Assembly: GCF_026810225.1 (NCBI RefSeq)
Contig: NZ_CP113865.1
Span: forward strand, 1,508,001 to 1,572,000
Length of the DNA stretch: 64,000 nt
Origin: Caldicellulosiruptor morganii
Lineage (GTDB): Bacteria; Bacillota; Thermoanaerobacteria; Caldicellulosiruptorales; Caldicellulosiruptoraceae
Direction of reading: 5' to 3'
Shown here: positions 20,356 to 24,368 of the stretch, one piece after another
Numbering within the stretch: position 1 is the stretch's first letter
How the letters are laid out: each line of letters opens with the position of its first letter
Program-made: the position numbers and the translations under genes
The notes under the pieces: model-generated
What the model saw: the letters and a program-made list of their open reading frames with translations, nothing else
The model's database searches: none
What the model was told of the DNA's origin: nothing

Positions 20356-21798
20356 TTACCTTCTCCCAAACAAATACATAAACACAAAAGCCGGAATCTT
20401 TATAATTGGAACTTTCGTATCAATATCAACCTTGCCAAAGTCTTCTGCTCTCTTTGTGACAAGCACAGCTGAGATTATATCTTTTTCTTTCTGGCACATC
20501 TCTACAATTGCATTACCTGTGCTAAGAGTGCTATCTTCTCTGAACTTTACCTCAATCAGGCTCTTACCATTTGGAAACTCAACTACCACATCAATCTCTT
20601 TTTGATTATCACTCGACTTTCTAAAATATCCTATTTTTGCATTTGTTTCACTGTAGAAATTATATATATGTTTAAAAATTGCTGTTTCTACTGTAATTCC
20701 AAGTTCCTTGCTATCTGTAAATAAATTATCTATCATCAAAACTGCATTTCTGATAGCCGGGTCAGAAATATATATCTTGGGTTTTGCCTTAAAAATTTTT
20801 TTGCCACCTAATTCAACTGGGAAACTTCTGTAAATTAAATTTGCATTTTCAAGTAAGTGAATATAATTTTCTATTGTGGTCACTGATACATTTTCAATCT
20901 GCTTGCTGATAGTTGCAATGTTTATCACACTTGCAGAGTTAAAACACAAATATAAGAAAACTTTTTCTAACACTGTCAAGTTTCTAACATTAAACAGTGA
21001 AGGAATATCTCTTTTGATGACCTTATCCACCACATCTTCTCTTAAAATTCTCTGAATTAAAAACCAATCTTCTGAAAATACAAATTCAGGAAAGCCCCCG
21101 ACCATTAAATATCTGCCAAAATACTTTTGCAGAGGCATAAGCAAAAAAACAAGTTCAGAAATTTGATGGGCATTTAAATTTGAAAGATCTTTTAAATCTA
21201 AATCTGGTAAGTTCTTTGGTCTTTCCTGGGCATCAAGTATTTCACAAAATTCATAAAACGAAAGAGTTGGAACAGAAACGACTGTCCAGCGACCAACACC
21301 ACTTTCTTTCACTCCTTCAATAAGTTTTGGTGAAGCAAAGCCTGTAGCAACAATTTCCCATTTTGGTTTTGTATCGTAATATACTTTTAACCACCTGTCC
21401 CAATCGCCTGCGTATTGAATTTCATCTAAAAATATATAAGCTTCTTCTGACTGGTTAATGTTCAGTTCATAAAGGGTCAAAATTTGATCAAATGAACAAA
21501 GCTTTAATAAAGGATGATCAAACGAAACATACAGCATTTTTTTAGGATTAACTTTATCCTTTAAAAGCGACTCTATTATCTGGTATAATATAGTAGTTTT
21601 GCCTACACGACGTGCACCTGAAAGTATAATATATCTTCTGATAGTTGGATGATTTAGCAGGCTAAAAACTCTATGGTATGCCATTCTCTTTACAGATTTA
21701 GATAAATCTTGTGGAAAGTAGCCGTCTCTCCACCAGGGATTATAAGAGTATAAAATTCTCAAAATGTTTTCTGAGCTTGTTATTGACAATTTCATCAC
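20356..21798 (-). CDS. AAA-type ATPase with C-terminal DUF4143 domain
   Basis: The 480-residue protein has a Walker A motif (LSGARRVGKTTIL), Walker B/sensor region (YIFLDEIQYAGDWDRWLKV), and a C-terminal DUF4143 part with a nuclease-like D...E-x-K pattern (EIDVVVEFPNGKSLIEVKFRE). These ATPases are widespread, highly mobile and of unclear role. Its gene is inserted between csrA/MNT-HEPN and hag, a junction where Bacillus has nothing. The start is uncertain: GTG 21798, ATG 21795 or TTG 21789, the last best spaced from AGGGGTG. The 33-bp repeats directly upstream may be its operator. Confidence 0.85.
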   Translation of the reverse strand: MMKLSITSSENILRILYSYNPWWRDGYFPQDLSKSVKRMAYHRVFSLLNHPTIRRYIILSGARRVGKTTILYQIIESLLKDKVNPKKMLYVSFDHPLLKLCSFDQILTLYELNINQSEEAYIFLDEIQYAGDWDRWLKVYYDTKPKWEIVATGFASPKLIEGVKESGVGRWTVVSVPTLSFYEFCEILDAQERPKNLPDLDLKDLSNLNAHQISELVFLLMPLQKYFGRYLMVGGFPEFVFSEDWFLIQRILREDVVDKVIKRDIPSLFNVRNLTVLEKVFLYLCFNSASVINIATISKQIENVSVTTIENYIHLLENANLIYRSFPVELGGKKIFKAKPKIYISDPAIRNAVLMIDNLFTDSKELGITVETAIFKHIYNFYSETNAKIGYFRKSSDNQKEIDVVVEFPNGKSLIEVKFREDSTLSTGNAIVEMCQKEKDIISAVLVTKRAEDFGKVDIDTKVPIIKIPAFVFMYLFGRR

Positions 21799-21820
21799 CC
21801 CTATTTTATATTATAACACA

Positions 21821-21901
21821 TACTTTAAATTTTTATCCCAAAAATATAAAGTATACTTTATATTTTTAAGCTAATTTTTTAAAGTATACTTTGTATTTTT
21901 G
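21821..21901. repeat. Three 33-bp-spaced AT-rich repeats upstream of the DUF4143 ATPase
   Basis: TACTTTAAATTTTTA (21821), TACTTTATATTTTTA (21854) and TACTTTGTATTTTTG (21887) recur at exactly 33-bp spacing. At the second and third copies the junction forms the palindrome AAAGTATACTTT (21848-21859 and 21881-21892). Spacing of three helical turns places the sites on one face of the DNA. They look like cooperative protein-binding sites in the promoter region of the ATPase gene. Confidence 0.7.
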
Positions 21902-21940: not shown

Positions 21941-21964
21941 AAGGCAGGTTTTTCTGCCTGCCTT
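21941..21964 (-). terminator. Terminator of the flgM-csrA-MNT/HepT operon
   Basis: The stem AAGGCAGG/CCTGCCTT is followed by TTTTTGTTTTT on the minus strand, just after the last HepT-like gene. It marks the end of the long flagellar operon before the ATPase gene. Confidence 0.85.
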
Positions 21965-23530: not shown

Positions 23531-23950
23531 TTATAGATTTGCATACTTTATAATCTCATCAATAATTCTATTTATATCATCAATACCATTAATTAGAATA
23601 TCATAAACTTTTGCCAGATCAATTTTAGAATATTCATGAACAATTATATTGCGAAAAGAAATCATTTTCTTAAAAATTAAAGCTAAACTTTCTGAAATAA
23701 CCTTTTCTTTTGATAGAATCTGCGGAATCTCACCATAATAACCCGGTGTTTCAAAAACATCATCGGCTATTATATGATTTCCTATGTCTATTAGATTCTG
23801 TATTGCCAAAAAAAGATTGTGAACGACTATGTCCTGAGCATCCTGATCCTTTTTGAATTCTTCAAAACTCATATTCTGAAATCTTTTTATTCTATTTAGG
23901 CAAAACACTATCCTATCTATTTTCTCACTGACAAGTGCCTTTTTTACCAT
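23531..23950 (-). CDS. HepT-like HEPN protein, copy 2 (putative RNase toxin)
   Basis: The 139-residue protein is a paralogue of copy 1, with R100-x4-H105-x-Y107 in FRNIIVHEYSKID. It follows and overlaps its MntA partner (26 bp) and ends 29 bp before fliW. It lies between the yviE-like gene and fliW, which are direct neighbours in Bacillus, so the pair is an insertion into the conserved string. Confidence 0.9.
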   Translation of the reverse strand: MVKKALVSEKIDRIVFCLNRIKRFQNMSFEEFKKDQDAQDIVVHNLFLAIQNLIDIGNHIIADDVFETPGYYGEIPQILSKEKVISESLALIFKKMISFRNIIVHEYSKIDLAKVYDILINGIDDINRIIDEIIKYANL

Positions 23951-24368
23951 TATCTGCTATCCTCTCTTTTATATACATCATCTTAATCTTCATAATATGC
24001 AGCCAGTCCTGATAGTAATAGAAACTCATCTTTTTAAAATTTACTAACCTATCATGGTCTTTTTCAATAATCAAAATGCCTTCTGAAATTACTTCGTGTC
24101 TCAAAAGCGGTGAAGCCTGATTCAAAATTACAAGGTCAACTTCTTTTCTTAGAATGTCTGAAATACCTATCATATGTTTGATCTGAAATTCCAATAACCT
24201 TTTAGAATCATTTGCCAGTTCCTCATCTACATATACAGCAATGTCAACATCGCTATTTTCATTTGCTTTCCCTTTTGCATACGACCCAAACAGATATGCA
24301 AATACAATGGTATTTTCTTTTTCAAAACATTCCTTTAAAACTTCCAAAATCCTGCTCTTTTCAATCAT
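23925..24368 (-). CDS. MntA-like nucleotidyltransferase, copy 2 (putative antitoxin)
   Basis: The 147-residue protein has G28-S29-x10-D40-x-D42 in FGSYAKGKANENSDVDIAVYV and the VDLVILNQASPLLRHEVISEG segment that parallels copy 1. Its ATG overlaps the stop of the yviE-like gene by 4 bp (ATGA type), the mark of translational coupling to the flagellar operon. It is the likely AMP-transferring antitoxin of HepT copy 2. Confidence 0.9.
   Translation of the reverse strand: MIEKSRILEVLKECFEKENTIVFAYLFGSYAKGKANENSDVDIAVYVDEELANDSKRLLEFQIKHMIGISDILRKEVDLVILNQASPLLRHEVISEGILIIEKDHDRLVNFKKMSFYYYQDWLHIMKIKMMYIKERIADNGKKGTCQ

Follow-up and report, generated by a model that had tools for sequence, protein, structure and literature searches.

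Organization of the locus

The window (the whole stretch of DNA analyzed in this work, 64 kb in length) comes from a genome of 2.48 Mb that is assembled as a single contig. On the minus strand the genes fliW, csrA, mntA and hepT are followed, in this order, by a gene for an AAA_14-DUF4143 ATPase, and an array of repeats is located between the terminator-like hairpin of hepT and the ATPase gene. The features used in the analysis are as follows (positions are those of the window):

20356-21798, minus strand: AAA_14-DUF4143 ATPase gene, 480 aa (PF13173, E 5e-31; PF13635, E 1e-28)
20764-21015, minus strand: predicted winged helix-turn-helix of the ATPase (aa 262-345), a candidate DNA-binding domain with a conserved basic wing
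21807-21834, minus strand: site A, AAAAATTTAAAGTATGTGTTATAATATA, with a single half-site AAAGTAT at 21820-21826
21810-21815, minus strand: -10 box TATAAT, preceded by TGT (extended -10), of the putative promoter of the ATPase gene
21840-21867, minus strand: site B, perfect 28-bp palindrome AAAAATATAAAGTATACTTTATATTTTT with 14 of 14 dyad pairs, the putative operator core
21873-21900, minus strand: site C, the outermost, 33 bp upstream of B; palindromic AAAAATACAAAGTATACTTTAAAAAATT with 9 of 14 dyad pairs
21941-21964, minus strand: terminator-like hairpin AAGGCAGGCAGAAAAACCTGCCTT followed by a T-rich tail, 3' of hepT

The ATPase gene is likely to start from the TTG codon at 21789-21787, which matches the ATG of the Thermoanaerobacter orthologues. 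The terminator-like hairpin after hepT is also visible in the orthologues from the genus, and it appears to separate hepT from the ATPase promoter. A second HepT-MntA pair is present at 23531-24368, beyond fliW-csrA, and thus two such pairs flank fliW-csrA in the flagellin locus.

According to TRF, the array (21820-21900) has a period of 33, 2.5 copies and 81% matches, and its score of 99 is the highest in the window, compared with a maximum of 65 for periods of at least 10 in 30 dinucleotide-preserving shuffles of the same DNA. The repeat search places the copies at 21808, 21841 and 21874, i.e. in two steps of 33. An earlier note on this DNA had described three copies in exact 33-bp phase, with a palindrome at two of the junctions, over the promoter of the DUF4143 ATPase gene. 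All of this is borne out: in addition to the phasing, the window contains AAAGTATACTTT only twice, at 21848 and 21881, both within the array (0.02 occurrences are expected from the base composition), and the -10 box is overlapped by site A. The genome as a whole contains one PF13635 gene and one array, the latter being the single location of TAAAGTATACTTTA.

Read on the gene strand, the three sites are unequal: B is a perfect palindrome, C an imperfect one, and A a half-site, the second half being replaced by the -10 region TGTTATAAT. Between sites B and A there is a step of 33 bp, and between A and the -10 box downstream of it a gap of 4 bp; no clear -35 box is seen in the ATPase promoter. 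A candidate promoter on the plus strand (TTGACA-18-TATATT, 21783-21812) was rejected, as its TTGACA is missing from most orthologues, and the count of promoter-like sites in the array region is that expected by chance. A function of the array at the RNA level was also rejected, because the array is upstream of the -10 box of its own gene and should therefore be absent from the ATPase transcript.

Conservation of the sites in orthologous promoters

The earlier note had proposed to look for the same repeats before related ATPase genes, and they are indeed kept there. The orthologues were drawn from the genus, the class, the phylum and from named genomes. In all 18 distinct orthologous promoters (58-100% protein identity) the distance from B to A is 33 bp, the gap between A and TATAAT is 4 bp, and site B matches the consensus at 22-28 of its 28 positions, while the distance from TATAAT to the start of the frame varies from 17 to 21. 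One more orthologue (L044, 58% identity) exhibits the same arrangement by eye; it was not aligned by the script and was left out of the 18. In four orthologues (L023, L024, L025, L043) the 58-bp block from B to the -10 box is 74-81% identical, compared with 24-32%, i.e. saturation, at the fourfold-degenerate sites. Since this identity has been kept in spite of the saturation, the promoter block comprising B, A and the -10 box is under purifying selection.

The third site has a different distribution. In eight promoters of the genus, site C matches at 21-24 of 28 positions; in Thermoanaerobacter and Caldanaerobacter it is degenerate (15-19 of 28), and beyond these two genera it is unrecognizable in most relatives. 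As C is well kept only inside the genus, the minimal conserved unit comprises the two sites B and A, with a good third copy as a feature of the genus. Among the more distant relatives, two (L053 and L055, in the 45-49% identity class) have AAAGTATA adjoining the -10 box, 33-34 bp from an upstream site, and three others of 45-49% identity (L045, L050, L052) retain a B-like site that matches at 21-22 of 28 positions. In a further four relatives below about 50% identity (L046, L048, L051, L054) operator sites do not rise above those in shuffles of their own sequences.

Palindromic sites that overlie the promoter of a gene and are conserved together with that gene present the picture of an autorepressor operator. 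One could also consider an array for an activator, or a promoter architecture (an UP-element or curved AT-rich DNA) that boosts a promoter devoid of a -35 box, as suggested by the lack of a clear -35 box here, by the A/T-rich tracts phased near the helical repeat and by the fixed distance from B to the -10 box. However, neither curvature nor UP-elements need a GTATAC-centred palindrome kept to the extent observed for site B, and the placement of site A over the -10 region is typical of repression; we regard this explanation as distinctly unlikely.

Genomic neighborhood

Throughout the genus the ATPase gene occupies one syntenic place, fliW-csrA-[mntA-hepT]-ATPase-flagellin, where the square brackets enclose the pair that may be missing; in other genera it is located elsewhere, and no neighboring gene is constant across genera. 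The ATPase gene had been called mobile, a description that fits the comparison between genera and fails within the genus. In four loci (L009, L011, L012, L102) csrA directly precedes the ATPase gene, the mntA-hepT pair is missing from that place and the operator is intact. Likewise, the operator is intact in three loci (L019, L023, L024) with no relative of MntA or HepT within about 5 kb. One Bacillota MAG (L025:7225-8865) has, about 2-3 kb downstream of its first ATPase gene, a further, incomplete one (60% identical) along with relatives of MntA/HepT.

These observations bear on the part of the earlier note that considered control of the array by the adjacent MntA/HepT proteins, a type VII toxin-antitoxin pair whose genes are directly upstream in the window. 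The array is not tied to the pair, as would be expected of a toxin-antitoxin operator, but persists in the two sets of loci just described; moreover, the terminator-like hairpin intervenes between hepT and the array. MntA/HepT are thereby ruled out as the regulators, and we assign almost no probability to the binding of the array by this pair.

Occurrence of the operator in the class

We searched 37 genomes of the class for the operator. In 21 of them there are exact matches to the 18-mer AAGTATACTTNATATTTT, in every case at the ATPase gene, at its C-terminal remnants, or (in G030) at a contig edge where the ATPase gene would continue. In one genome (G033) the array that carries it is parted from the ATPase gene by an insertion with IstA/IstB-like ORFs (L107:4263-6793). 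When as many as 3 mismatches are tolerated, the two-site pattern turns up in 24 of the 37 genomes, compared with none for a reversed control pattern. It occurs away from the gene at two places: in G021:C25 (L094:1970-2060) a two-site array precedes a gene for an SNase-domain lipoprotein, with no ATPase gene, and in G026 (C1:286890; L129 around 1500) there is a relic array with no gene. At both places B and A are still 33 bp apart and site A is nearly a full palindrome. The remaining genomes without the ATPase, among the 37 scanned, lack the pattern. Given this near-exclusive occurrence, the operator appears to belong to the ATPase gene. In one assembly (G017:C1; L103, L104) 7,881 bp near the contig start are identical to the contig end; it is probably an untrimmed circular assembly, in which the "second" ATPase copy is likely to be the overlap.

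Four genomes of the genus (G001, G003, G006 and G008; L096-L099 and L015-L018) share a deletion that fuses the array to the last ~150 codons of the gene, i.e. the PD-(D/E)XK part; all but one of these copies contain in-frame stops or frameshifts. The arrays survive, and the domains for the ATPase and the winged helix are gone. In G003, G006 and G008 the arrays are 90-91% identical to that of G001 and the gene fragments 85-86%, a gap too small to indicate selection either way. In another genome (G009, L102:1890-3000) an insertion with a transposase-like ORF interrupts the ATPase gene after about codon 57. Such frequent loss of the ATPase gene is in keeping with a gene that is costly or of the defence type.

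In all the gene-less or truncated copies (the remnants in the genus, G021:C25 and G026) site A reads approximately AAAGYAYACTTT, almost a full palindrome, compared with AAAGTATGTGTT in the same region of the intact ATPase genes. The palindromic form of site A in these copies could go back to template-switch correction of an imperfect palindrome after the promoter had become dispensable, or it could be inherited from an older version of the site. It also invites another reading, in which recombination rather than control of transcription accounts for the conservation of the array, which would mark either the end of a mobile unit or a hotspot for deletions. Between genera, homology begins near site C and ends at the stop codon, and the gene-less or truncated copies of three lineages (G001/G003/G006/G008, G021 and G026) diverge right after A, the very site that is nearly a full palindrome in them. 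On the other hand, there is no matching site at the other end of the ATPase gene and no transposase, the relation to the -10 box is fixed, and the gene is syntenic throughout the genus, which makes this reading highly improbable. A comparison of the G026 relic with empty sites revealed no clean boundary, as the place is variable in relatives.

The persistence of arrays in the four genomes now devoid of the ATPase core, together with the additional array before the lipoprotein gene in G021, speaks in favor of a host-encoded regulator other than the ATPase that would bind the operator and control the ATPase gene; 28-bp palindromes would suit many repressors of the MarR, GntR or TetR type. However, such a regulator would have to maintain the same 28-bp site across several genera at almost one place per genome, would have no exact site at its own gene, and is not to be found in any constantly present neighbor. 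We therefore consider it rather unlikely, although by no means negligible, and return below to autoregulation by the ATPase.

Predicted structure of the ATPase

The protein matches the AAA_14 and DUF4143 profiles and, according to PADLOC, seven PDC-S01 models (best E 2e-58), on which basis it is presumed to be a candidate anti-phage defence protein. Among its conserved motifs, GARRVGKTT and [LF]DEIQ correspond to Walker A and B, and EID and E[VA]K to the PD-(D/E)XK signature, so that a Walker A/B ATPase is fused to a PD-(D/E)XK domain of the EID...E-x-K form. No homologues were found in viral contigs, and plasmid and phage records contain only distant relatives, with about 31% identity or less. 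A sequence search of the PDB yielded nothing beyond chance-like matches to designed PPR proteins.

In the AlphaFold2 model (pLDDT 87, pTM 0.86) the ATPase core is followed by a winged helix and then by the region with the PD-(D/E)XK signature. The predicted succession of an AAA+ core and a winged helix is that of STAND proteins; no C-terminal sensor repeats are seen in the model, and the C-terminus has a nuclease-like fold. The ATPase core aligns with RPP1, CED-4, 2QEN and SSO1545 (2FNA) with Z scores of 15-17 over 256-290 residues, and the top Foldseek matches of the model are DNA-bound Orc1/Cdc6 structures. The predicted winged helix comprises helices 274-286, 294-300 and 306-318 and a wing at 322-344, and attains a pLDDT of about 82 when modelled alone. 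For the most part, the structures most similar to it are bacterial repressors (MarR/MepR, Fur/PerR, IscR and BlaI/MecI), along with other winged helices that bind DNA; the similarity is modest (Foldseek E at best 0.018, Z at best 8.6). Winged helices of STAND/NLR proteins often have intramolecular roles, and a shared fold does not by itself establish a function. Judging from the model, it is plausible that the ATPase binds DNA via its winged helix.

A proposed model of autoregulation

Since the neighbors differ across genera while the operator stays, the ATPase itself is the simplest candidate for the regulator. The earlier note had offered autoregulation by the ATPase or by the HEPN/MNT proteins; the latter drop out for the reasons given above, and the former stands as the best remaining candidate. 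We believe that autoregulation by the ATPase, most likely repression, is the best explanation of the data and probably, though far from certainly, the correct one. Counting against it are the weaker or different sites in relatives below about 50% identity and the arrays in the four genomes without the ATPase core.

According to this model, the ATPase would bind each palindrome as a dimer or larger oligomer, through its winged helix (aa about 262-345). The 33-bp spacing corresponds to about three helical turns. Neighboring sites would thus face almost the same side of the helix, and the occupied site B (and, in the genus, also C) could help to fill the weaker half-site A. As site A overlaps the extended -10, its occupation would shut out RNA polymerase, and the ATPase gene would thereby be held at a low level by negative feedback. 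It is tempting to speculate that a change in the nucleotide or oligomeric state of the ATPase, e.g. upon sensing an invader, releases the promoter. What the data show are the sites, their spacing, their conservation and their near-exclusive occurrence; which protein binds, in which direction it acts and that infection releases it are inferred. A more far-reaching possibility, which we put forward tentatively and consider doubtful, is that a STAND/NLR-like nuclease-ATPase serves as its own transcription factor, forming an oligomer on the array over its promoter, and that one and the same change of state would both trigger the effector and switch the expression of the ATPase gene.

The operator in the wider DUF4143 family

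Below about 50% identity the sites are weak or different, and palindromes of this kind are missing from the promoters of most other DUF4143 subfamilies, so that the promoter operator is not a rule for the whole family. No common motif was found upstream of 26 DUF4143 genes from the wider family. Direct repeats with a score of at least 17 precede 3 of these 26 genes, compared with 1 of 110 controls (Fisher p 0.02, with a threshold picked after seeing the data), while for promoter repeats overall the counts (8 of 26 and 23 of 110) are not clearly different. The evidence for promoter repeats as a general trait of DUF4143 genes is suggestive at most. The three promoters with strong direct repeats each have units of their own, different in sequence: three units of about 24 bp, GACAAAyACTTGAATTAAAAA, in L162, three units of about 23 bp, TGAAATnnnGCCAAA, in L163, and two TTTATAGTATACTATAAA-like sites in L178.

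Comparison with known systems

A functional precedent is RptR, a repressor of its own phage-defence operon that acts via three palindromes in phase, which cover the -10 box (PMC12255303). RptR is a dedicated 9-kDa repressor encoded by the first gene of the operon, and its operator is built of the 6-bp palindrome TAGCTA in 9-bp repeats (PMC12255303). The operator described here resembles it in having three phased palindromic repeats that overlap the -10 box, although the sequences are unrelated: the palindromes are 28 bp long and 33 bp apart, TAGCTA, 9-bp repeats and an rptR gene are lacking, and the stretch from the array to the ATPase gene does not encode any small repressor. Plasmid iterons also come to mind, as the repeats are phased and close to the gene of an ATPase presumed to bind DNA, and the array had been described as iteron-like; this likeness holds for the spacing, but the array is chromosomal, its sites are palindromic and no replication initiator gene adjoins it. 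With hepT, mntA, csrA, fliW, flagellin and the ATPase as the neighboring genes, iterons or a replication origin were rejected.

The protein itself can be compared with three groups. Its ATPase and PD-(D/E)XK layout is that described for PDC-S01, which ranks fourth among defence systems across prokaryotes, with validation pending for most PDCs (PMC12988326). We found in the literature no operator described for PDC-S01 and no study of the regulation of the AAA_14-DUF4143 family; a gene of the AAA_14/DUF4143 type in Thermus thermophilus changes its expression with the presence of a plasmid (PMC4406477). The predicted core of an ATPase and a winged helix is shared with STAND/NLR and Orc1/Cdc6 ATPases (2QEN, 2FNA, CED-4, RPP1; 2V1U, 2QBY), but the sequence identity is 10-18%, and a C-terminal PD-(D/E)XK domain replaces the repeats or effector domains. 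Finally, IniR is a STAND-type regulator that binds a promoter and whose ATPase domain has been compared with SSO1545; in contrast to the ATPase considered here, it binds DNA with a distinct domain at its C-terminus, and the operon under its control is a different one, iniBAC (PMC5760070).

The operator points to a testable DNA-binding role for a candidate defence ATPase. If the ATPase binds it, the family would gain a DNA ligand, a readout of the nucleotide state and a way to ask about the trigger of release. With respect to the known systems, a phased palindromic operator is of a familiar kind, and what is new is its owner, an uncharacterized and very common candidate defence ATPase.
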